Of a stretch of 64,000 bases of DNA, positions 6,376-17,651 are shown in pieces. The DNA is taken from positions 829,501 through 893,500 of the forward strand of contig NZ_CP020100.1 in NCBI RefSeq assembly GCF_002056295.1, written 5' to 3'. Made by a program: the position numbers and the translations under genes. Below the pieces are notes generated by a model. That model saw nothing but the letters and a program-made list of their open reading frames with translations, made no database searches and had not been told where the DNA came from. This DNA is from Halopseudomonas phragmitis (GTDB lineage: Bacteria; Pseudomonadota; Gammaproteobacteria; Pseudomonadales; Pseudomonadaceae). Numbering within the stretch: position 1 is the first letter of the stretch; the number at the start of each line of letters is the position of its first letter.

Positions 6376-8553
6376 CTACCAGCGGTAGCTAAGGCTGGCA
6401 ACCAGATTGCGGCGGTTGCCATACCAGCAGTAATAGTCACAGGTCGCGACATATTTCTTGTCGCTCAGGTTGTTGCCATTGAGCTGCAAGCGCAGATTCT
6501 GCCAGTCGTAACTGAGCATGGCGTCGTAGAGCGTGTAGGAGGGCACCTTCAGGTCTTCGACATTATCACCGTAGCTGGCCCCGACATAGCGTGCCCCAGC
6601 ACCAAAGCCCAGGCCGTCGAGCACCCCGCCACGGACCTGATAATGCGCCCACAGCGAAGCCAGCTTGTCCGACACCTGCGAGGGCGTCTTGCCCTTTTCC
6701 GCCACGGCATTGCCCGTCTTGGTGGTTTCGGCATCGAGCAGCGTCAGGGCACCGACCAGACTCAGTGCCGGGGTGACATTGGCGGTGGCTTCCAGCTCCA
6801 GGCCACGCACCCGAACCTCACCAACCTGTTGGGTCACTGCCGGTGCACCAGCCGCCTTGCGCACGTTCTCCTGGGTCAACTCGAACAGCGCGGCATTGAA
6901 GCTGCCATTAAATCCGGGCGGCTGATATTTCAGGCCCAGTTCATACTGCTGGCCGGTTTCCGGCTTGAACGCCCGACCATCGGGGGCAACATCGGTGACT
7001 GGCAGAAAGAACTGCGAATAGCTGGCGTAGGGTGTCAGGCCATTGTTGAACAGATAGGCGACCCCGCCGTTCCAGGTGATCTCGTCGTCCTTGGCCTGAT
7101 TGCCAGCACCGGTGGTGCGATTATCGAAGTCGAACTTGGCCCGGTCGTGCCGAGCCCCCAGCAGGAACACCCAGCGCTGATCGTACTTGAGCTGATTCTG
7201 GGCATAGACCCCGACCTGATCGACCTTGCTGCGCTTGTCTTCCAGAGCAAAATCGAATGGTACCTGGGTATAACTGGGGTTGAAGATATTCAGCGTGGCC
7301 GGATACAGCGGCCAGCCGTTGGGACTGCTGTCCTTGACCTTGAGCCGCTGGTAGTCTGCTCCCAGCAGCAGCGTGCTTTCCCAGGCGCCGGACTGCCACT
7401 GACCAATCAGGCGATTGTCGACCGACAGATTGTCGGCCTCACCATCGGCATAACTCAAACCACGTACCAGCTCGCCGGCCGGCAAATCGGCCCAGAAGAA
7501 AAAGAACAGCTGGCGCAGATCAACATCGATATGCCCGTAACGCAGGTTCTGCTGAGCACTCCAAGTGTCGTTGAAGCGGTGATTGAACTCATAACCCAGG
7601 GTGTATTGGCTGCGCTCGAACTTTTCATAGTCGGGCAGGCCGACTGCGGTATCGGTATCGATCTTGCCCAGCGGATGACGCCGCACCGTGCCCTCGGTCG
7701 GTAGAAACTGCAGCATAGGGTCACCGCTGTCCTTCTGGAAACTGGCCAGCAGGGTCAGTTCGGTGGCCTCGCTCGGCTTGAGGGTCAACGACGGCGCGAT
7801 CAGCAAGCGATCGTTGTCGACGTCGTCAACCTGGGTGCCGCTTTCGCGCGCCAGCGCGGTGACCCGATACAACACCTGCGGGTTGTCGTTGAGCGGGCCG
7901 GTGACGTCCAGATTGAGCTGGCGCCGATCGAAGCTGCCGACCTGCATACCAACCTCGCCAAAAGCGCTCTCGCTCGGGCGCTTGCTGACCAGATTGATTA
8001 CCCCGCCCGGCGGCGTCTGGCCGTACAGCACCGAGGAAGCTCCGCGTAGCACCTCAACCCGCTCAAGCTGGTAGGGGTCGATCTGCCAGCTGTAGAAACC
8101 GCTGGAGTAAACCCGGGTACTGTCATGGAACAGGCCGAAGTTGGCCTGCTTGAAACCGCGAATGATGAACCAGTCCTGCTTGTTGTCCTCACCGAAGTAA
8201 CCAGCCTGTACGCCGGGGGTGTACTTGAGCGCATCGCTGATACTGAGGACGTTGCGATCCTCCATCTGCTGGCGAGTCACCACCGAGATCGAACGCGGAA
8301 TCTCGTTCAGCGGAGTATCGGTTTTGGTGCCGACCAGGGTATTGCTGGCGACATACCCGGTATCCGGACCGTGCGGATCGGCCTGTTCACCGATGACTGT
8401 CGTTGGCGCCAGGACCGCGCTGTCCTGAGCATTGGCGTTAAGCGCCAGACAGGCCAGCCCAACACCCAGCGCGATGGCCAGAGGGGACAACAGGTTGTTT
8501 TCAGCGACGACAGCAGCCGGCACAACAGGCCGGCACAGAACGGAACGGGACAT
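6376..8553 (-). CDS. TonB-dependent siderophore receptor (FhuA/FoxA-like)
   Basis: Outer-membrane receptor of 725 residues in the ferrichrome/ferrioxamine type of TonB receptors. The long N-terminal leader ends near ANAQ (about residue 42). The plug (about 75-215) shows EIPRSISVVTRQQMEDR, DALKYTPGVQAG, FIIRGFKQ and VEVLRGASSVLYGQTPPGGVI, all signatures of this subfamily. The C-terminus has the paired-cysteine segment CDYYC and ends in YRW, a usual barrel-assembly signal. Downstream fhuF and an upstream Fur-box match both argue for an iron-repressed hydroxamate uptake unit. The exact siderophore cannot be told from the sequence. Confidence 0.9.
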   Translation of the reverse strand: MSRSVLCRPVVPAAVVAENNLLSPLAIALGVGLACLALNANAQDSAVLAPTTVIGEQADPHGPDTGYVASNTLVGTKTDTPLNEIPRSISVVTRQQMEDRNVLSISDALKYTPGVQAGYFGEDNKQDWFIIRGFKQANFGLFHDSTRVYSSGFYSWQIDPYQLERVEVLRGASSVLYGQTPPGGVINLVSKRPSESAFGEVGMQVGSFDRRQLNLDVTGPLNDNPQVLYRVTALARESGTQVDDVDNDRLLIAPSLTLKPSEATELTLLASFQKDSGDPMLQFLPTEGTVRRHPLGKIDTDTAVGLPDYEKFERSQYTLGYEFNHRFNDTWSAQQNLRYGHIDVDLRQLFFFFWADLPAGELVRGLSYADGEADNLSVDNRLIGQWQSGAWESTLLLGADYQRLKVKDSSPNGWPLYPATLNIFNPSYTQVPFDFALEDKRSKVDQVGVYAQNQLKYDQRWVFLLGARHDRAKFDFDNRTTGAGNQAKDDEITWNGGVAYLFNNGLTPYASYSQFFLPVTDVAPDGRAFKPETGQQYELGLKYQPPGFNGSFNAALFELTQENVRKAAGAPAVTQQVGEVRVRGLELEATANVTPALSLVGALTLLDAETTKTGNAVAEKGKTPSQVSDKLASLWAHYQVRGGVLDGLGFGAGARYVGASYGDNVEDLKVPSYTLYDAMLSYDWQNLRLQLNGNNLSDKKYVATCDYYCWYGNRRNLVASLSYRW

Positions 8554-8592
8554 GAAAGGCGACCTCAGGGAGCTATTGCCGCCAATCTAAAC

Positions 8593-8611
8593 CATTATCA
8601 TTTAGATAATC
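8593..8611 (-). promoter_or_regulatory. Putative Fur box upstream of siderophore receptor
   Basis: The 19-base segment CATTATCATTTAGATAATC resembles the Fur consensus built from GATAAT/ATTATC units; I count 11 of 19 matches to the classic form. It lies 40-58 bases before the receptor start on the coding strand, a typical operator position. Iron repression of receptor and fhuF is the expected consequence. Confidence 0.6.
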
Positions 8612-8614
8612 AAA

Positions 8615-8701
8615 TCAATCTGCGACATTGGACAGCTTCTTCAGGGTTTCCGCCAGTTGATTGATCCGTGCCACTGTATCGGACAGCAGCCCATCGACAA
8701 C
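8615..8701 (-). other. Possible short coding remnant
   Basis: On the minus strand a 28-codon stretch reads as an amphipathic helix ending ARINQLAETLKKLSNVAD before a TGA stop. A TAG lies immediately upstream in frame and there is no start codon with a ribosome binding site. It looks like the tail of a lost protein rather than a gene, and its parent family is not recognised. It could also be chance. Confidence 0.15.
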
Positions 8702-8720: not shown

Positions 8721-9851
8721 TCAGTCCGGCTCTATCCCAATCCATTGGCGCAACTGGCGTAATTGACCGGGATCCTGGGCCAAACCAGCCTCCAGAGCTG
8801 CAATGCGCATGATGACCCGATCCTTGCGCAGGCTGCCAGCCGGTAGTTTGAACAGAGCACCGATAAGCTCACGCAACGGAAACGGCAAGCGCAGCCGGGT
8901 TTTCAGGGCATTGCCAAACCCTGGCCCGAAGCGCGTCAGCAAGGTTTCCAGACTGACACGGTCACAGACCATACCACCGTAGTTGAAGTAGTTCTGGATC
9001 GCGCACAGGACCGCCAGCTCACCCAGGCGACTGAGCTCCACTGCCGTGTGCATCTGCTCGGTAGCCAGCCCCTGCGGGCGGGCCAATGAATTCAGAATTT
9101 CACCGAGCCCACTTTGCTGCGCCAGCAACTGTCCGGCCAACTGCTGCAGATCGACGTGAGTCAGACCCGGCTGGGTATGTGCCAGTTGGTGGGCCAGCCG
9201 GACGCACTCGGCCGGGCCCAGGCGCTTGATCGCGGCCTCCAGACTCAGGCAGTCGAAGCCGCCGTCGGCGTGCTCATGGCGATTGGCCCGGCTCAACCAC
9301 TCAGCAGCCAGCAGCGGCTCCTGACGCGCCATGCGCCAAAGCTCCGAGGGCTCACAGCGCGCCGTCCAGTGCAGCACACTCTGGCGGTGAGCCGGCTCGC
9401 ACCAGGGGATGAACAGCGCCTGCTCCGGTCGCTGGGTGAGAAAGTGCTCCAGGCTGTCGAGCTGAATGGGCGCAGCCGTAGGCTGCCCGTGCCCCTGCAT
9501 AACCTTGCCCAGGCGCTCGATCAGCACCTCGACGCTGAAGGGCTTGGCAATGAAGTCGGTAATCCCGGCATCCCGAGCGGCCAGAACGGTAGCGCGGTCA
9601 ATGCTGGCGGTCAGTAACACCCGGCTGCTGGCCGGGCTGCGCTGGCGAGCCACCCGTATCGCCTCGAGCCCACTGGCATCGGGCAGGTGCAGGTCGGCCA
9701 GCAGCAGATCGACTGGCCGGGCCTTGAGCTGATTGAGGCAGTCGCGCACGTTGCCAAAGCGCAATACCCGCGCATCACTGGCAACATGTCCAATTACCTG
9801 CGCCAGCAATTCGGCAATCCACTCATCGTCCTCGACGATAATGACGTTCAA
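8721..9851 (-). CDS. Response regulator with HDOD output domain
   Basis: A 376-residue two-domain signalling protein. The N-terminal receiver (1-120) has acidic residues VEDDE, phospho-acceptor Asp53 in LLADLHLPD and the Lys in IAKPFS. The C-terminal half (about 150-370) resembles an HDOD domain, with a PLLAAEWLSRAN helix and an AAIKRLGPAECVRLAHQLA helix. HDOD domains are HD-related but lack phosphodiesterase metal ligands, and they often act as interaction modules. It is the last gene of a five-gene leftward island and its start overlaps the stop of the upstream cyclase by four bases. A regulatory role in the same phosphorelay is inferred. Confidence 0.82.
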   Translation of the reverse strand: MNVIIVEDDEWIAELLAQVIGHVASDARVLRFGNVRDCLNQLKARPVDLLLADLHLPDASGLEAIRVARQRSPASSRVLLTASIDRATVLAARDAGITDFIAKPFSVEVLIERLGKVMQGHGQPTAAPIQLDSLEHFLTQRPEQALFIPWCEPAHRQSVLHWTARCEPSELWRMARQEPLLAAEWLSRANRHEHADGGFDCLSLEAAIKRLGPAECVRLAHQLAHTQPGLTHVDLQQLAGQLLAQQSGLGEILNSLARPQGLATEQMHTAVELSRLGELAVLCAIQNYFNYGGMVCDRVSLETLLTRFGPGFGNALKTRLRLPFPLRELIGALFKLPAGSLRKDRVIMRIAALEAGLAQDPGQLRQLRQWIGIEPD

Positions 9852-11494
9852 GATAGCGACACTCCAATCACCCGGTTGCGGCCTTGCTGCTTGGCCTGAT
9901 ACAGATGCTGATCAGCCAGCTCCAGCGGCTCGTCCAGACACCAGTCCGGCGCCTCGCAGGCGCTGATACCGGCACTGAAGGTACATTGAAACAGCTTCGA
10001 GCCACTACTGAACTGCAACGCCGAGAAAGCCTCGCGGATGCTGTCCAGGATCGCTTTGGCATCAGCCGCTGCGCAGTTGGGCAGCACTGCGACAAACTCT
10101 TCACCGCCGTAGCGACCGATCCGGTCAATCCGCCGCAGGCGCTGGCGCAGCAGGTTGGCCAGCGCCCGAATCACGGTATCGCCCACCGCATGCCCATGGT
10201 TGTCGTTGACCGACTTGAAGTGGTCGATATCGATCATTGCGATACTCACCGGCTGCTGAGTGCGCAAGGCACGCTCGACCTCCAGTTCGACCTGTTCCTT
10301 GATGTCGGCATGCTTGAGCAGACCAGTCATGCTGTCGCGCGCCAGCGCCTGGCTCACCAGGCGGGCACGCTGGGCCCGGGCATAAACCGTGGTCAACAGT
10401 GCCGCATCACTGATCGGCTTGCTGACAAAGTCGTCGCCAGCCTTGAGCAGAGCTGCCATCTGCGCCACGGTATCGGTTTCCGCCGACAGATAAATGATCG
10501 GCACCCGCAGCCAGTTGTCGTTCAGCCGGATCATCTGCGCCAGCTCAATACCGCTGTAGTGGGGCATATTGATATCCATCAACACCACGTCCGGCTGAAA
10601 GGCGTTCATTCGCTTGATCAGTTGTGCCGGGTCGAGCACGGTCTCCACGCGCATCCCGGCGTTGTCGAGAATGGCCTTGAAGCGTTCCGCCAGTTCCTGA
10701 TCGTCATCCACCACCAGAACCCGGAACGGGTCGTCCTGCTGGACCTCAAAACTGCGCCGCAGGCGGTTTTCCAGCACGGTCAGGTCTACCGGTTTGGTGA
10801 AGAACCCGCGCGCACCGGCCCGCACCGCCTCGAGCCTGGCGGCAAATGCCGAGTCGGTACTAATGGCGATCACCGGCAGGGGGGGGACGCGGCCAGCCTG
10901 CCAGCGCTGCAGCGCGCCCAGGGCCTGATGGCCGGCCACCTCGGGGCTGATGTCGATGATCAATGCCGCGTATTGACCGCTGTCCAGCTGGGTAATCAGG
11001 CTGTCGGCCTGCTCCAGGATGGTGACCTGATAGCCGAAATTGCTCAGGGTCTGACTGGTCTGACGCGCCAGCTCGGGATCGTGTTCCAGCATGAGGATAT
11101 GCTGCTGCCCCTGCTCATCAGGGAGCGCCGATTCCAGCGGCTGGCTGTCCTGCGGTTCGGGCCGGCTCTGATTGAGCAACAGTGGTAACTGGCACAACCC
11201 CTCGCGCAGGCGCTTGCGGGCCTCATCGGCAGCCGCGGGGTCCGCCAGGCAGTGCTTGGCCAACTGCTCCAGCTCCCGGGCCCGCTCGCCCAGGGCTGTA
11301 TGGCCGAAGGTGCCTGCCGAGCCCGCCAGCTTGTGCAACTGGCCCTGCAACTGCTGCAGGGCGGGCTCGACCTGCTCGGTATTCTGTAGTTGTTCGGCCT
11401 GGCGCACCAGTTCCGGCAGTTCCTGCTCCAGCCGCTTGCGAAAAGCCTGGCCCAGCTCGGCCAGTTGAGCTTTCAACTGTTCAGTCTTCGGCAT
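9848..11494 (-). CDS. HPt-REC-REC-GGDEF diguanylate cyclase
   Basis: A 548-residue cytoplasmic protein predicted to make cyclic-di-GMP. Order of domains: a histidine-phosphotransfer domain (about 15-95, His54 in LHKLAGSAGTFG), a first receiver (about 125-240, candidate Asp in IIDISPE but an altered acidic pocket, LEHD), a second canonical receiver (about 250-370, LVVDDD, LMDINMPHYSG, SKP), and a GGDEF domain. The active-site loop is GGEEF at 463-467, preceded by an RxxD inhibitory-site motif (RRID) at 454-457. An HPt fused ahead of two receivers on a cyclase suggests phosphotransfer within or between partners. The start at 11494 follows GGGAG. A longer in-frame start at 11593 would lie inside the neighbouring gene. 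It overlaps that gene by 14 bases. Confidence 0.88.
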   Translation of the reverse strand: MPKTEQLKAQLAELGQAFRKRLEQELPELVRQAEQLQNTEQVEPALQQLQGQLHKLAGSAGTFGHTALGERARELEQLAKHCLADPAAADEARKRLREGLCQLPLLLNQSRPEPQDSQPLESALPDEQGQQHILMLEHDPELARQTSQTLSNFGYQVTILEQADSLITQLDSGQYAALIIDISPEVAGHQALGALQRWQAGRVPPLPVIAISTDSAFAARLEAVRAGARGFFTKPVDLTVLENRLRRSFEVQQDDPFRVLVVDDDQELAERFKAILDNAGMRVETVLDPAQLIKRMNAFQPDVVLMDINMPHYSGIELAQMIRLNDNWLRVPIIYLSAETDTVAQMAALLKAGDDFVSKPISDAALLTTVYARAQRARLVSQALARDSMTGLLKHADIKEQVELEVERALRTQQPVSIAMIDIDHFKSVNDNHGHAVGDTVIRALANLLRQRLRRIDRIGRYGGEEFVAVLPNCAAADAKAILDSIREAFSALQFSSGSKLFQCTFSAGISACEAPDWCLDEPLELADQHLYQAKQQGRNRVIGVSLS

Positions 11495-11873
11495 TCCATT
11501 GCTCCCAAAGGGCCCGAATCTCGGTAGCCAGTTGCATAGGGTCAAAGGGTTTAGTGATAACCCCGGCCGCCCCCAGGGCACGGTAGCCTTCAACTTCCTG
11601 GCTCTGGACCTTGGCGGTCATGAACACCACCGGGGTATACTGCAACCCGGGCAACTCCCGCAGCCGCTGCAGCGTTTGCGGTCCATCCATGCCCGGCATC
11701 ATCACATCCAGCAATACAAGATCGGGGGCGAAGGCTTCAGCGGCGGCCAGGCCGGCCGCGCCGCCATCACAGGTCTTGACCTCGAAACCACCCACCACTT
11801 CCAGGGCAATCCGGGCAATTTCCTGGATCGAAGGGTCGTCCTCGATATGCAAGATGCGCTGTAGCTGACTCAT
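11481..11873 (-). CDS. CheY-like single-domain response regulator
   Basis: A 130-residue stand-alone receiver with no output domain. The acidic pair is in HIEDDPS, the phospho-acceptor is Asp56 in LLDVMMPGMDG, and the conserved Thr/Lys positions are in FMTAK and ITKPFD. It lies between two histidine kinases upstream and the HPt-receiver cyclase downstream, and overlaps the cyclase by 14 bases. By analogy with other phosphorelays it could shuttle phosphate from a kinase to the HPt His54 of the cyclase. That link is inference from order and domain content. Confidence 0.88.
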   Translation of the reverse strand: MSQLQRILHIEDDPSIQEIARIALEVVGGFEVKTCDGGAAGLAAAEAFAPDLVLLDVMMPGMDGPQTLQRLRELPGLQYTPVVFMTAKVQSQEVEGYRALGAAGVITKPFDPMQLATEIRALWEQWNAED

Positions 11874-11906
11874 AGTTCTGATAATCCCCCCAATCAGTGA
11901 GACTCA

Positions 11907-13511
11907 TTATGGCATGCTCCTGTCCGGGGAGCCGGCCAATGGCAGGCGGAACCAGAAACAGGCACCCTGACCAGCTTGGGAGTCGACGCCAATGCTGCCG
12001 CCCATCCGCTCGACCAGTTCCTTGCTGATAGCCAGCCCCAACCCTGTGCCGCCACGCTTGCGGCTGGTGCTGTCGTCAACCTGGAAGAAGCGCTGGAACA
12101 GCCGGCTCTGCTGTTCGATGGCGATGCCAACCCCCTGATCGGTGACCTGCACCTGGACCTGATCATCGATCACCCGACAATCAACCACGATGCTATCCCC
12201 GGCATGGGAAAACTTGGCAGCATTGGACAACAGGTTGTCCATCACCTGGAGCAAGCGCTCGGCGTCGCAGATCAGGTGCAACTCGGCTGACAGCGGCTGT
12301 AGCACCAGGCTGACATTGAACCGTTCGGCATACGGCTGATTGGACTCAATGGCCCGCTGCAGCAACGGCAGCAGGGGTTGGACACCCAGTTTGAGCGGCA
12401 AAAGCCCGGACTCCAGGCGCTCGATATCCAGCAGGTCATTGATCAGCGCCTGCAAACGCTGGGTGTTGTCCTGGGCAATGCCCAGCATGCGCCGTCCAGC
12501 CTCGGGCATGTCACCGCCAGCACCACCCAGCAGCAAGGCGATGGCGCCGCTGATCGAGGTCAGCGGGGTGCGCAACTCATGACTGACGGTGGCGATGAAC
12601 CGGCCTTTCATCTGCTCGATCTGACGCCGCTCGGTGATATCGAGCATCGCAATCATGGCCCCCTTGAAGCGGCCTTCGGCATCGTACAGCGGCCCGCCGC
12701 TGGTCAGCAGATGGCGAACTGGCTGGCCGCGGGCAGCGATGCAAAAACTGACATTGCTCACCTGCTCGCCACTCAGGGCACGCCACAGTGGCACCTGATC
12801 GGCGGCCAGCGGGGTCACTTCATCACTGTGGTACAGATCGTAATAACGCCACCAGTGCTCGGGCGGTATATCTAGGATATCAACGCCATGCCAATCCCGC
12901 GCCGTACGATTGATCAGCGTTAGCTGGCCCTTGGCATCGCAGGCGACCACTCCGACCATCATAGACTCAAGCAGACTGGCGTTCAGGGCCTTCTGCTCAC
13001 TCAAGGCCATCTCGCGTTCCTGGGCCTCGAGCAGTTGCAAACGCAGACGCAACTGTTGCTCAACCAGTCCGGCCAGGCGGCTCAGCGTGTCGCGTTGCTG
13101 GACATCCAGCGTGCGTGGCTGGCGGTCGATCACGCAGAGCGTGCCCAGCGGATAGCCTTCGGCCGAGTGAACCGGCATACCGGCGTAGAAACGAATGTGC
13201 GGCTCACCGGTCACCAATGGGTTGTCACGGAACCTCGGATCTTCACTGGCATTTTCGACTACCAGCAGTTGGTCGGCCCGGATCGCATGGGCACAGAACG
13301 CCATATCGCGCGGCGTCTCGCAGACGTCCAGGCCCACCCGGCTTTTGAACCACTGACGCCGATCATCCAGCAGCGAAACCAGCGCTATCGGCGTTTGCAA
13401 ATATCGTGTCGCCAGAGTGGCGATATCGTCAAACGCCGCCTCGCCCGGGCTGTCCATGATCTGGTAACGAGCCAGGGCCGCAAGTCGGCGCTGTTCGGCG
13501 CTCGCGTTCAT
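11907..13511 (-). CDS. GAF-PAS sensor histidine kinase
   Basis: A soluble 534-residue kinase without membrane segments. The N-terminal GAF domain (about 20-160) is of the type found in many two-component kinases that begin with ARYQIMDSP and carry FCAHAI and CVIDRQPR. A PAS domain follows (about 175-295, VGVVACDAKGQLTLIN). Then come HisKA with His311 in TVSHELRTPLTSI and an HATPase with NLLSNAAKFS, DQGVGI and GGTGLGLAIS. There is no receiver of its own. Its start overlaps the upstream kinase stop by four bases (ATGA). Its kinase core closely resembles that of the upstream gene, which suggests duplication. Confidence 0.9.
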   Translation of the reverse strand: MNASAEQRRLAALARYQIMDSPGEAAFDDIATLATRYLQTPIALVSLLDDRRQWFKSRVGLDVCETPRDMAFCAHAIRADQLLVVENASEDPRFRDNPLVTGEPHIRFYAGMPVHSAEGYPLGTLCVIDRQPRTLDVQQRDTLSRLAGLVEQQLRLRLQLLEAQEREMALSEQKALNASLLESMMVGVVACDAKGQLTLINRTARDWHGVDILDIPPEHWWRYYDLYHSDEVTPLAADQVPLWRALSGEQVSNVSFCIAARGQPVRHLLTSGGPLYDAEGRFKGAMIAMLDITERRQIEQMKGRFIATVSHELRTPLTSISGAIALLLGGAGGDMPEAGRRMLGIAQDNTQRLQALINDLLDIERLESGLLPLKLGVQPLLPLLQRAIESNQPYAERFNVSLVLQPLSAELHLICDAERLLQVMDNLLSNAAKFSHAGDSIVVDCRVIDDQVQVQVTDQGVGIAIEQQSRLFQRFFQVDDSTSRKRGGTGLGLAISKELVERMGGSIGVDSQAGQGACFWFRLPLAGSPDRSMP

Positions 13512-16500
13512 GAGGGTTCTCCTGAATGATGTGCAGGCACACTACTGACCTCACTGACGGGCAGACGGAACCAGAAACACGAGCCCTGGCCTTCTTGCGA
13601 CTCAAAACCAACCTGGCCGCCCATGTGCTGTACCAGTTCCCGACTGATGGCCAGCCCCAGCCCTGTACCACCTCGCTGGCGCGCATCGCTGCCATCGGCC
13701 TGGCTGAATTTCTGGAAGATCTGCTCCTGAAAGTCGACAGGAATCCCGATACCCTGATCCGTCACGCTGACCGTCACCTGCCCTGCTTCGATGCAAGCCT
13801 CGAGCAGAACGTCACCTCCCGGATGGGAAAACTTGGCAGCATTGGACAGATAATTGGCCAGCACCTGTCCAATGCGTTTGGCGTCCACGATCACCCAGGC
13901 ATCATCGATCCTGCCCGCCTGCAAACGCACCTGATACTGCTCGGCATAGCCCTGATTCAGACTCAAGGCCTGTTCCAGCAGAGGCTTGAGCCGCTGACGC
14001 TCAAGCTCAAAATGCATCTTGCCTTCGCTGAGCTTGTCCATGTCGAGCAGGTCATTGATCAGCGCATGCAGGTTGTCGCTGTTCTGCTGGGCAATCCCCA
14101 GCAGCTTTGCCATCGGTTCCGGCACTTCGCCCATGGCCCCGCCCAGCACCAACCCCAGCGCGCCGGCAATTGCGGTCAGCGGCGTGCGCAGCTCATGGCT
14201 GACCGCCGAGACGAACTGGGTTTTGAGCTGCTCGACCCGATGCTGCTCGGTGATATCCCAGATAAAACCGTCGAGCCAGAGCAGTTGGTCCTGGCTGTCG
14301 TATTCGCCACGGCCCTTTTCCCGAACCCAGACATGGTGGCCATCGGCATGCACTATCCGGTAGGTCAGCTCAAAGCTCTCCCGACGCTCGATATGGACGA
14401 TGGTGGCATAGGTCAGGTGCAGGTCATCAGGATGCACGATGCTAGCGTAGCTGCGAACCCGATTGTCGATGAAGTCGCTGGCCGGATAGCCCGTGAGCCG
14501 GGCGATACCGTCACTCATGTAGGACATGGTCCAGTCGGCGTCGCTTCGACAGCGATACACCACACCCGGTAGGTTGCTGACCATGCTGCGGAACCGCGAC
14601 TCGCTTTTTTGCAGTGCCCGGGTCGCACGAACCTGTTCGCTGATATCTGTAATTACCCCGTGCCAGATAATGTCGCCGTTCTCCAGTGGCTCGGGGGAGG
14701 AGCGCCCGGCAACCCAGATCAAACCACGCTGAGGATGATGGATGCGATATTCGCAACGCCATTCGTTGAGCCCGGCTGCGGACTCTCGGATGCTGATCGC
14801 CACCCTTTGTCGGTCTTCCGGGTAAATTGCCTCGAAAGCCGCCATATCACTGGCCGCTGCCTGTTCCGGCGTGATGCCGTAGATATCGACAATTCCTTGA
14901 CTACTGTAGGGAAACCAGCCGCGGCCACTACAGTTGTACTGATATTGATAGACCATGCCGGGAAGATGCCGGGCCAGCTTGCTGAAACGGCTGAGCAGTG
15001 CTTCACGCTCCTGCTCGAACTTGCCCCGGGTCAGCACGGCCGCAATCCAGCGGCCGCACAGACGCATGAATTCCAGGTCGGTGTCCTCGAACGACTCGTG
15101 ACGCGCCTGCGCACTGGAAAAATTCAGTGTGCCAAAACGCTCGCCAGCCACCGTCAGCGGCATTCCGATATAGCTCTCCAGGCCAAAATGCTGATAGCAC
15201 GGATGGCCGCGGTGAATTGACTGGCCCATATTGTCAATCGCCAGCACGTCATCCTGGGCCAGAGTCAGGCTGCAGTAGGTCTGCCCCAGCGGGAAGTGCG
15301 TACCGTCCTCCAGGCCATCGTCCTTGGCATGATGGCTGAGTACCTGATAATCGTCATCCTTGATCCGACTGACAATCCCCATGTCCAGACGCAGATAGCC
15401 ACAGCCCAGCTCCAGCACCCGACGCAACCGCTCGTGCTGGCCCAGATGCTGCAAACTGGCGATTTCGTTGAGCGCCCGCAGCGCCTGACGCTGACGCTCC
15501 AGCCCTTGCCGGGTCTGCTCACGGGCCAGACTTTCCTGGATGATTGCCTGTTGGTGCTGCTCAGCCTGGCGCCGTACCGTGACCCGGGTCGCCAGCAGCA
15601 GCGCACTGAACAGGCCGGCCGCCGCCAGCAAAGCAATCAGCCAGCGGCCCAGCAGTTGCCGCTGCTCGGCGTTATGGCGCAGCAGTTCCGCGCCGATTTC
15701 ACGCCAGGCCAACACCGCCGCCAACGGCCGGCCAACTTCCTCGTATAGCGGAATGAAGGTCACTAAATAGCGCTGGTCGGAGGCTTCAACCAGGCGATAA
15801 CCGGCACTGTACTCTGGCTGTGGGAGCCTACCAGCTTCACGCCAGTCGAGAATTTCCGCTCGCGAGTACTGGGCTAACAGCCAATCCCCACTGTCGAGCC
15901 GGCTCAGTTCGTTCTGCTCCTGCTCGAGCATCACCCCCTCAAGGCTCGGCCGATAGAGCATCAGCGCCAGGCCGGCATCCAGTTCCAGATCAAGCTGACG
16001 CAGCTCCGGCAGCATCCCGTAGCCGACCTCGACACTGGCAATTACCGCGCTATCGGAATCTTCGCTAGCACGAATCGGCACAACCCCGCGAATACCCGAA
16101 CCATGCCGGCCCACTTCCATACCTTTGACGGACTGTCCCGTGCGTTGCACCCGGTCAACCAGATGACGAATGCCATCCAGCCGATCACCCCATTTATCCG
16201 GCTGGTGCATACGCAACAGACTGATCACCCCCGGTGCCAGGTGAATGTGCAGTTGACTGGCCCCGGACTCGGCCAGCACCATCCACAACCCCTGCAGATC
16301 GGCCTGGAGCTGAGCGCGCAACAACAGCACGCCATCGGAGTCCAGGCCATCACGCTCGGCCAGCACGGCGATGCGTCGTACCAGACGCAGCAGATCCGGG
16401 TTCTGGCTGACCTGGTTGGCAGCCAGCAGCACCTGGCGCTCCAGGCCGGCCCGGGCCTGCAGTACGGCCAGACGCTGAACCTCGGAGTGCATATCGAGCT

Positions 16501-16627
16501 CCTGCTGCCATTGCTGTTCACGTTGCTGCCAGCCCCACCAGGCCAGGAAGCTGAAGAACAGCGCCAGAGCCAGGGTACCCAGGCACAGGATCACATGTCC
16601 GGCGATGACGGTGCGGGATTTGGCCAT
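13508..16627 (-). CDS. Membrane dCache-GAF-PAS-PAS histidine kinase
   Basis: A 1039-residue inner-membrane sensor. TM1 (about 9-32) and TM2 (about 327-348) enclose a roughly 290-residue periplasmic region resembling the dCache_3 fold (HIHLAPGVISLLRMHQPDKWGD and GSGIRGVVPIRA are characteristic). Cytoplasmic parts are GAF (about 395-545), two PAS domains with PAC motifs (about 560-800), HisKA with the His near 811 in AVSHELRTPLTAI, and an HATPase with NYLSNAAKFS and GGTGLGLAIS. There is no receiver. I prefer ATG at 16627 over the in-frame TTG at 16642. It is the first gene of the five-gene island and probably supplies its extracellular input; the ligand is unknown. Confidence 0.9.
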   Translation of the reverse strand: MAKSRTVIAGHVILCLGTLALALFFSFLAWWGWQQREQQWQQELDMHSEVQRLAVLQARAGLERQVLLAANQVSQNPDLLRLVRRIAVLAERDGLDSDGVLLLRAQLQADLQGLWMVLAESGASQLHIHLAPGVISLLRMHQPDKWGDRLDGIRHLVDRVQRTGQSVKGMEVGRHGSGIRGVVPIRASEDSDSAVIASVEVGYGMLPELRQLDLELDAGLALMLYRPSLEGVMLEQEQNELSRLDSGDWLLAQYSRAEILDWREAGRLPQPEYSAGYRLVEASDQRYLVTFIPLYEEVGRPLAAVLAWREIGAELLRHNAEQRQLLGRWLIALLAAAGLFSALLLATRVTVRRQAEQHQQAIIQESLAREQTRQGLERQRQALRALNEIASLQHLGQHERLRRVLELGCGYLRLDMGIVSRIKDDDYQVLSHHAKDDGLEDGTHFPLGQTYCSLTLAQDDVLAIDNMGQSIHRGHPCYQHFGLESYIGMPLTVAGERFGTLNFSSAQARHESFEDTDLEFMRLCGRWIAAVLTRGKFEQEREALLSRFSKLARHLPGMVYQYQYNCSGRGWFPYSSQGIVDIYGITPEQAAASDMAAFEAIYPEDRQRVAISIRESAAGLNEWRCEYRIHHPQRGLIWVAGRSSPEPLENGDIIWHGVITDISEQVRATRALQKSESRFRSMVSNLPGVVYRCRSDADWTMSYMSDGIARLTGYPASDFIDNRVRSYASIVHPDDLHLTYATIVHIERRESFELTYRIVHADGHHVWVREKGRGEYDSQDQLLWLDGFIWDITEQHRVEQLKTQFVSAVSHELRTPLTAIAGALGLVLGGAMGEVPEPMAKLLGIAQQNSDNLHALINDLLDMDKLSEGKMHFELERQRLKPLLEQALSLNQGYAEQYQVRLQAGRIDDAWVIVDAKRIGQVLANYLSNAAKFSHPGGDVLLEACIEAGQVTVSVTDQGIGIPVDFQEQIFQKFSQADGSDARQRGGTGLGLAISRELVQHMGGQVGFESQEGQGSCFWFRLPVSEVSSVPAHHSGEPS

Positions 16628-16722: not shown

Positions 16723-17496
16723 TTACAAGCTGTTGTTCAGGTGTCCACCGTCAACGTTGATAATGGTGCCGGTCATGAACGAGCCGGCCTCGCTGGCCAA
16801 CAGCAGCAACGGACCATCCAATTCCTGCAACTGCCCCAGACGGCGCATCGGCACCTTGCTGCGGATGTACTCTTGGCCTTTATCGGTGTCGAAGTAATCA
16901 CTGTTCATTTCGGTGCGGAAGTAGCCCGGTGCGATCGCATTGACCCGGATGTTGTCACGCGCGAGCTCCAGCGCCATGGCCTTGCTCAACTGCACCACGC
17001 CGGCCTTGGCGACTGCATAGTGACTGAGTGCAGTGCCAACCCGCAGGCCAAGAATCGAGGCGATATTGATGATGCTGCCGCCATTGCCGCTTCTGGCCAT
17101 GGCCTGGCTGGCCCGGTGGGCCACCCGCCAGGCACCATCCAGGTTGGTATCCAGGGTACTGCGCCAGTTGCCTTCGGTCATTTCCAGAAAGGCTGCCGGA
17201 TCAGCAATGCCGGCATTGTTGACCAGAATGTCGACCACGCCCCAGTTGGCTTCTGCCTGAGCAAAGCCGGCATCGACGCTGTCCGAATCGGTCACATCCA
17301 TGGTGACCGCCAGCGCTTGGCTACCCTGTTGTTGGAGCTCGTTAACCAGTGCCTGCAGCCGCTCGGCACGCCGGGCAGCGAGCACCACCCGAGCCCCAGC
17401 GCTGGCCAATACCCGGGCGAAATGTGCGCCCAGGCCACTGGATGCGCCGGTGATCAGCGCGGTTTTGCCGGTCAGGTCAAAGCGTTGGGTGGTCAT
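16723..17496 (-). CDS. SDR family oxidoreductase
   Basis: A 257-residue classical short-chain dehydrogenase. Visible are the NAD(P)-binding TGASSGLG motif (about 16-23), NNAG (about 95-98), the catalytic Ser before a YAVAK (YxxxK) pair, and the C-terminal INVDGG segment common in FabG-like members. The start at 17496 follows GGAGAG. It is divergent from gltS across 155 bases and not obviously part of an operon. The arginine in AARR after the second strand suggests NADP(H) preference, but substrate and cofactor are inference. Confidence 0.88.
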   Translation of the reverse strand: MTTQRFDLTGKTALITGASSGLGAHFARVLASAGARVVLAARRAERLQALVNELQQQGSQALAVTMDVTDSDSVDAGFAQAEANWGVVDILVNNAGIADPAAFLEMTEGNWRSTLDTNLDGAWRVAHRASQAMARSGNGGSIINIASILGLRVGTALSHYAVAKAGVVQLSKAMALELARDNIRVNAIAPGYFRTEMNSDYFDTDKGQEYIRSKVPMRRLGQLQELDGPLLLLASEAGSFMTGTIINVDGGHLNNSL

Positions 17497-17651
17497 CGAA
17501 ACTCTCCTCGGTCTGCAGGTGTTTGCGCCAGTATCAGACAAACCTCTGGCCGACTCCAGCATGCTCGATCCGGCTGATGATGCACCATGTCGGCAACCCT
17601 AGCCGGCGCTATGCGGCTAAACTTGCAGACTGGATTCTGTCAGGACTCGTC

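Follow-up and report, generated by a model that had tools for sequence, protein, structure and literature searches.

The genome of Halopseudomonas phragmitis (4.04 Mb, one contig) carries an island of five tightly packed genes that probably encodes a four-step His-Asp-His-Asp phosphorelay ending in a diguanylate cyclase. The window in which it lies, by which we mean the whole 64,000-nucleotide stretch that was analysed (bases 829501-893500), holds the island between positions 16627 and 8721, with all five genes on the minus strand. They encode two sensor kinases (K1 and K2), a single-domain receiver (R), a cyclase with the domain order HPt-REC1-REC2-GGDEF and a REC-HDOD protein (Table 1). The island is a real, widely conserved signalling unit, as observed in its gene content, domain content, residue conservation, co-occurrence and predicted folds. 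An earlier reading made from the sequence only had placed the same five genes here, coupled by overlaps or short gaps, and indeed successive genes overlap by 4, 14 and 4 nt, with a sole gap of 33 nt. It had also proposed that phosphate may pass from kinase to a CheY-like receiver, to HPt and to REC2, and this route appears, on comparative evidence, to be the best supported reading.

In the proposed relay, K1 and K2 would autophosphorylate and share R as one diffusible carrier, which would pass its phosphoryl group to the cyclase, at His54 of the N-terminal HPt. From the HPt the group would move to Asp307 of REC2 within the same protein, on the same or the partner chain, and phosphorylated REC2, which has an intact switch residue and adjoins GGDEF, would promote the active GGDEF dimer and the synthesis of cyclic di-GMP (c-di-GMP), the biofilm signal made by this output enzyme. 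The I-site of the cyclase would give product inhibition. REC1 in the lineage of the window would be a degenerate receiver with a structural or docking role, and the REC-HDOD protein would be an optional second terminal receiver. We infer every phosphotransfer step and its direction, as well as all effects on activity. The phosphoacceptor sites of R, of the HPt and of the terminal receiver REC2 are all intact.

The constant core of the island in its relatives is R plus the cyclase; the kinases vary, and the five-gene set as a whole is only partly repeated elsewhere. In a first set of 20 loci drawn from genomes of the family Pseudomonadaceae, 18 had HPt-bearing cyclases, all 18 with an adjoining R and between one and three kinases, whose architecture varies, while the remaining two were GcbA-like and had no R or kinase match. 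To these were added 80 loci from named genomes (the best 80 of 536 relatives, from Pseudomonas, Stutzerimonas, Marinobacter, Salinicola, Cellvibrio, Rheinheimera, Nitrosomonas and others) and 20 further stretches taken around weaker cyclase matches. The cyclase was found in 116 of the resulting 121 regions (the window and 120 loci), of which 112 remained after four duplicate loci were dropped. Taking as R any single-domain receiver that is no longer than 190 aa and lies within 6 kb of the cyclase, we found R in 70 of the 88 loci whose cyclase has the HPt His, a kinase within the same distance in 69 and a REC-HDOD gene in 17; the corresponding counts for the 24 His-minus loci were 0, 2 and 0. 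These 88 still include L146, a duplicate of L132 that is left out of the 69-row R counts, the tree and the 111-row cyclase counts given below. The figure of 70 is a lower bound, because the R of L098 and of L125, which lie in longer open frames, were missed by the length cut-off. Among loci flanked by 4 kb or more on each side, R was present in 55/65 His-bearing and 0/22 His-minus loci. Since the R-cyclase core recurs in other genera and classes, it is not a product of chance. Gene order differs in Marinobacter, where the kinases are divergent and cyclase-HDOD-R lies downstream; the set therefore exists in several arrangements. Loss of synteny among homologous islands had been named at the outset as grounds for abandoning the idea of a phosphorelay island; what we found is that R and the cyclase mostly stay together, with the kinases replaced, multiplied or turned round.

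The association also holds genome-wide. A profile built from 14 R proteins detected R at 158-213 bits in 13 of 18 genomes, while no other receiver in these genomes exceeded 86.5 bits. R was missing from five: two Nitrosomonas, which have an HPt-bearing cyclase, and three genomes reached through GcbA-like loci. Among 198 Pseudomonadaceae genomes the profile found R in 66. Relay-type cyclases were called in these genomes at a best E of 1.2e-98 or lower, read by eye, and even the two weakest cyclase genomes, G187 (L055) and G026 (L054), have the HPt His and R. R was present in 60/60 genomes with a relay-type cyclase and in 6/138 without (Fisher's p 2.6e-44, a statistic that ignores relatedness). 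Shared ancestry alone is a poor explanation of this co-occurrence, because presence is patchy inside genera as judged by eye (23/33 genomes for genus code g1, 28/31 for g15 and 8/32 for g14). The 138 include some g6 and g18 genomes in which an HPt-bearing cyclase stands beside another receiver (L143-L146).

R itself has the features of an intermediary. Response_reg is its only Pfam domain, its active site is intact in 69/69 loci, and the aromatic switch position is occupied by V, L, I or C in all of them (0/69 aromatic). A survey of 48 receivers, from stretches around 43 matches in the window's own genome, found an aromatic residue there in 32/32 response-regulator receivers, 2/2 cyclase receivers, 5/9 receivers in kinase open reading frames (ORFs) and 3/5 single-domain receivers (R included); Tyr is kept by three of the four other single-domain receivers. 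According to an excerpt of Bruderlin et al. (PMC9981736), CckA-type intermediary receivers vary at the aromatic switch and terminal CtrA-type receivers keep Tyr. The absence of the switch residue from R and its retention in REC2 therefore suggest an intermediary role for R and a terminal one for REC2. Spo0F matches R at 68 bits, no more closely than other receivers do (best 104 bits). These data also bear on a scheme with two outputs, in which the kinases would phosphorylate R as a free-standing output, such as a motor or protein-binding regulator, and the cyclase would be fed by other hybrid kinases. Such kinases do exist in the genome and in related islands, and R persists in 6 of the 138 genomes that have no relay-type cyclase. 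We nevertheless regard two outputs as improbable, because R and the cyclase nearly always occur together and are usually adjacent, because HPt covaries with R (see below), and because all 69 R rows are without the aromatic switch when most of the other single-domain receivers examined in the genome keep it.

For the cyclase, Pfam reports Hpt (1.1e-9), two Response_reg and GGDEF (7.4e-40), and the AlphaFold2 model (mean pLDDT 86) shows residues 3-109 as four helices. The window protein has an intact HPt His54, the I-site R454xxD457 and GGEEF. Of 111 non-duplicate rows, 87 carry the HPt His and the remaining 24 are GcbA-like; the REC2 receiver quintet and aromatic switch are intact in 111/111, the RxxD I-site is found in 110/111 and GG[DE]EF in 109/111. 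The REC1 quintet, on the other hand, is intact in only 31/87 His-bearing rows and 0/24 His-minus rows; it is kept in 7/7 rows of the chemosensory (Che) type and in 11/37 rows of the window's Pseudomonadaceae clade. In the window H138 replaces the second acidic residue, and Stutzerimonas rows have lost the REC1 Asp. As REC2 is always intact and REC1 often degenerate, REC2, which adjoins GGDEF, is thought to be the phosphorylated receiver. A search of PDB sequences with the HPt alone returned two weak matches only, to chains named BRIC1 and sc-apCC-6-SLLA.

PleD entries are the top Foldseek matches of the cyclase model, which raises the alternative that the kinases phosphorylate a receiver of the cyclase directly, as in PleD, and that the HPt is only structural. 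In PleD, however, REC1 is the phosphorylated receiver, and it is REC1 that is degenerate in the window. Moreover, in a quick tree of 109 rows, built from REC2-GGDEF with the HPt left out, all rows but the 24 of a single clade, the GcbA-like clade, have the HPt His (85/85). We therefore consider direct activation highly improbable, even though the kinase DHp domain covaries with REC1 (see below) and GcbA-like homologues have neither HPt His nor R while GcbA/AdcA is, in the available part of the paper naming AdcA, an active cyclase on overexpression (PMC3946381).

We then asked which domains covary. For 57 loci with R and a nearby kinase, domain distance matrices were compared with all others held constant, giving one-sided permutation p values; the effects are small and the permutation test leaves some relatedness in. 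Residual covariation was found between DHp and R (0.18, p 0.003), HPt and R (0.20, p 0.001) and HPt and REC2 (0.38, p 0.001), the last being the least telling value because HPt and REC2 share one chain. There was little between DHp and REC2 (-0.11), DHp and HPt (-0.03), HPt and REC1 (0.03), R and REC1 (-0.08) or R and REC2 (0.09, p 0.07). The same parts and the same residue conservation would serve a flow in the reverse direction, with the kinases phosphorylating REC2 directly and the HPt returning phosphoryl groups to R, a phosphate sink that would turn the cyclase off. A sink could well be without the switch residue, as R is, and HPt-REC2 and HPt-R both covary. Still, DHp covaries with R and not with REC2, and the presence of R in every cyclase genome is more than a drain seems to need, so that we find a reverse drain unlikely.

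Several observations weigh against the forward relay from kinase to R, HPt and REC2. The aromatic-switch criterion is a tendency, as the five aromatic residues among nine receivers in kinase ORFs illustrate. DHp and REC1 covary (0.23, p 0.002), which the relay model does not predict, and the full REC1 quintet in 24/80 His-bearing rows outside the Che type means that REC1 may be phosphorylated in some relatives. R was not found within 6 kb by the 190-aa rule in 18/88 HPt-bearing loci; a search of nine of those 18 genomes recovered R in seven (in two of them inside the locus) and none in two Nitrosomonas. A hybrid kinase lies near R in 21/88 HPt-bearing loci, so R is not always the sole receiver at hand. 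Conversely, six genomes have R without a relay-type cyclase: the stretches taken around R contained no HPt-REC-REC-GGDEF gene, and some held R alone and others R with kinases (L217 has a REC-HDOD gene a few kb from R). The scan of named genomes used an HPt-bearing query and three patterns, one of which includes the HPt His, so the 80 named loci favour an intact HPt. Finally, the HPt His changes once on the tree, so its association with R there is one evolutionary observation, and an independent-pairs test of it yielded one pair only and had no power.

The 24 His-minus cyclases lie on one side of a single branch (SH-aLRT 99, in a quick tree with long branches where the join to L099 is flagged doubtful) and come from nine family genus codes (g4, g5, g7, g8, g9, g11, g14, g15, g18) and six named records. 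As the HPt was left out of that tree, the split between the two groups does not follow from their definition alone. The window cyclase lies outside this clade, in an island context and not at an orphan locus. At the position of the HPt His, 21/24 members have another residue, and in 3/24 the ORF as found does not include it; the REC1 Lys is absent in 24/24, while REC2, I-site and GGEEF are retained. The tree alone cannot show the direction of this change, but loss of the His is the better reading, because the relay-clade HPt profile still recognises the N-termini of the His-minus proteins (hhalign 94.7%, E 5.8e-8, against 0.6% for a REC1 control template; 8.4-23 bits for 21 N-termini, against at most 5.6 bits in 420 shuffles). 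Downstream of the GcbA-like gene of P. peli (L134), the one locus checked in full, are genes for a methyl-accepting chemotaxis protein (MCP), DsbD, a class II dehydroquinase (aroQ), AccB and AccC, and the MCP and dehydroquinase neighbours were also checked in L137. We take the gene order of P. aeruginosa beyond PA4844, on to accC, to match these neighbours. PA4843 (gcbA/adcA) encodes two receivers, an I-site and GGEEF, and the next locus, PA4844, is a chemotaxis transducer, in the consulted portion of PMC3946381; GcbA is said, in an excerpt of PMC9355167, to be the P. aeruginosa c-di-GMP protein with two REC domains. On the basis of domain make-up and neighbouring genes we provisionally equate the clade with GcbA/AdcA, and GcbA/AdcA seems to be the closest named homologue of the island cyclase. 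P. peli also carries two relay-type cyclases, each adjoining an R. On the same tree, L136, a record named Pantoea sp. Ap-967, has a GcbA-like cyclase beside that of P. plecoglossicida; its name may be wrong.

More tentatively, R plus cyclase may be a portable output socket for HisKA kinases, hybrid kinases and (through a related receiver) CheA arrays. GcbA/AdcA, a widespread cyclase of Pseudomonas, would then be a decommissioned copy that has lost its HPt His and its R, and that uses another activation route or no relay. The 2014 paper naming AdcA, in the part available, left the partner kinase of GcbA/AdcA to future studies (PMC3946381); if the N-terminus is a dead HPt, the search for a partner should consider what led to the relay being abandoned and whether phosphorylation of REC2 persists.

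Table 1. Genes of the island, in window coordinates
Gene product	Position	Strand	Features
K1, membrane sensor kinase, 1039 aa	13508..16627	-	dCache_3-GAF-PAS-PAS-HisKA-HATPase_c, without own receiver
K2, soluble sensor kinase, 534 aa	11907..13511	-	GAF-PAS-HisKA-HATPase_c, without own receiver
R, single-domain receiver, 130 aa, proposed intermediary	11481..11873	-	E11, D12, D56, T86, K108 intact; V105 at aromatic switch position
Cyclase, HPt-REC1-REC2-GGDEF, 548 aa	9848..11494	-	HPt His54; REC1 with H138 in place of the second acidic residue; REC2 D263, D264, D307, S337, F356, K359 intact; I-site R454xxD457; GGEEF
REC-HDOD protein, 376 aa, TTG start	8721..9851	-	Receiver quintet and aromatic switch intact

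Pfam bears out the domain list of the sequence-only reading, apart from the HDOD of the window protein, which falls below the Pfam cut-off (5.5e-4, 19.9 bits against 22.9), next to a Response_reg. K1 matches dCache_3 (9.5e-12), GAF, two PAS, HisKA and HATPase_c, and K2 matches GAF, PAS, HisKA and HATPase_c, so it is correct, within the window, that neither kinase carries a receiver of its own. The claim that the only HPt is inside the cyclase is true of the island but fails genome-wide, where there are 10 HPt matches, one of them in a 118-aa open frame elsewhere. K1, which is membrane-bound and has a dCache sensor, and the soluble K2 are paralogues; the K1 kinase core is the best non-self match to K2 in the genome, at 265 bits, the runner-up reaching 147.

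An HDOD domain is likely in the last island protein, since all 15 aligned REC-HDOD members, the window protein included, match HDOD (E up to 0.1; best 2.4e-24). The assignment rests on sequence because Foldseek with the model of this protein returned only receiver-containing proteins among the 50 matches listed. The receivers of REC-HDOD proteins have F or Y at the aromatic switch in 17/17. A side output through HDOD, as first proposed, is plausible, but it would be optional, given its presence in 17/88 HPt-bearing loci. The domain may serve to read or relay a second output; c-di-GMP is bound by SadB, a different HDOD protein, according to an excerpt of PMC6543031, a precedent that serves as a lead only.

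At the island locus the nearest relative is G105, with a cyclase 97% identical. Upstream on the same strand, 16723-17562 is by eye a short-chain dehydrogenase gene, which by eye also lies upstream in L038 and L046. Downstream, the ORF at 6376-8553 is by eye a TonB-type receptor, and the stretch upstream of it (8560-8640) is AT-rich with a partial inverted repeat and by eye could be an iron-regulator site. Promoter and terminator scans gave 2 hits against a shuffle mean of 2.3 and 4 against 5.7, that is, no excess.

Some related loci show variations of their own. Stutzerimonas-type islands (L053, L066, L069, L076) have two R copies, each near one of two kinases, and an extra kinase-receiver pair downstream of the cyclase. 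In Nitrosomonas, L096 and L103 have an HPt-bearing cyclase and no R by profile, and a third, L095, has R beside its cyclase. R is kept without a relay-type cyclase in the stretch in L213, L217 (with REC-HDOD) and L218 (with a kinase), which reads like a decayed or partial island. An 819-aa relative in a similar cluster (L135:9089-11548) has SGDEF and an H in place of the I-site Arg, and is possibly an inactive cyclase. Geobacter sp. OR-1 (L118:9712-13042) has two REC-REC-GGDEF cyclases head to tail. The cyclase of L127, a metagenome-assembled genome named Robiginitomaculum, falls inside the Marinobacter group on the tree, which suggests misbinning or transfer.

The island had at first not been recognised as a named system. 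An HPt-REC-REC-GGDEF cyclase beside a CheY is, however, known already: in an excerpt of a 2018 paper, chemosensory cluster 2 of Halomonas titanicae KHS3 comprises CheA2 with a receiver, CheY2 and the HPt-REC-REC-GGDEF protein 'DGC Ht', a phosphorelay is suggested, and the authors knew of no characterised cyclase of this architecture (PMC5907407). As far as that excerpt goes, cluster 2 and the island share the cyclase domain order and a single-domain receiver encoded beside the cyclase. They differ in input, which there is CheA with a chemoreceptor, CheB, CheR and CheW and here two HisKA kinases (Pfam finds no Che domain among the five island proteins), in REC1, which is phosphorylatable there and degenerate in the island, and in R, which belongs to another receiver family. 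From their gene pattern and their position on the tree, seven of our loci were classed as the Halomonas chemosensory type. Three of them were checked with Pfam (L101, L108 and L132, the last via its duplicate L146), and each has a CheA that ends in a receiver; CheB was confirmed in L146. The HisKA-fed version, R as a constant carrier and the dead HPt of GcbA were not found in the literature searched, but such absence is weak, because the string HPt-REC-REC-GGDEF found no paper and yet the Halomonas description exists. Experiments on the Halomonas system may also have been published since.

The Wsp system likewise has a receiver-GGDEF output, WspR, under multi-component input, but its input is CheA-type and its cyclase has one receiver and no HPt (in part from the excerpt of PMC5907407). 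The Caulobacter Hmr pathway was dropped as a parallel, since its putative HPts are separate proteins in the consulted part of PMC11481889. GcbA/AdcA shares REC-REC-GGDEF, the intact REC2, the I-site, GGEEF and a recognisable HPt relic with the island cyclase, and differs in its missing HPt His and REC1 Lys and in having no R within 6 kb. PleD of Caulobacter shares the REC-REC-GGDEF core but has no HPt, which the island cyclase does have, and the intact receiver of the latter is REC2. In the Spo0 phosphorelay of Bacillus, non-hybrid kinases share one single-domain receiver, followed by a His phosphotransferase and a terminal receiver, and the proposed island relay would run in the same order. 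It differs from Spo0 in that a single protein serves as both phosphotransferase and terminal receiver, and in its output, the synthesis of c-di-GMP. The island is a compact case in which one carrier would collect several sensors into a single c-di-GMP enzyme.

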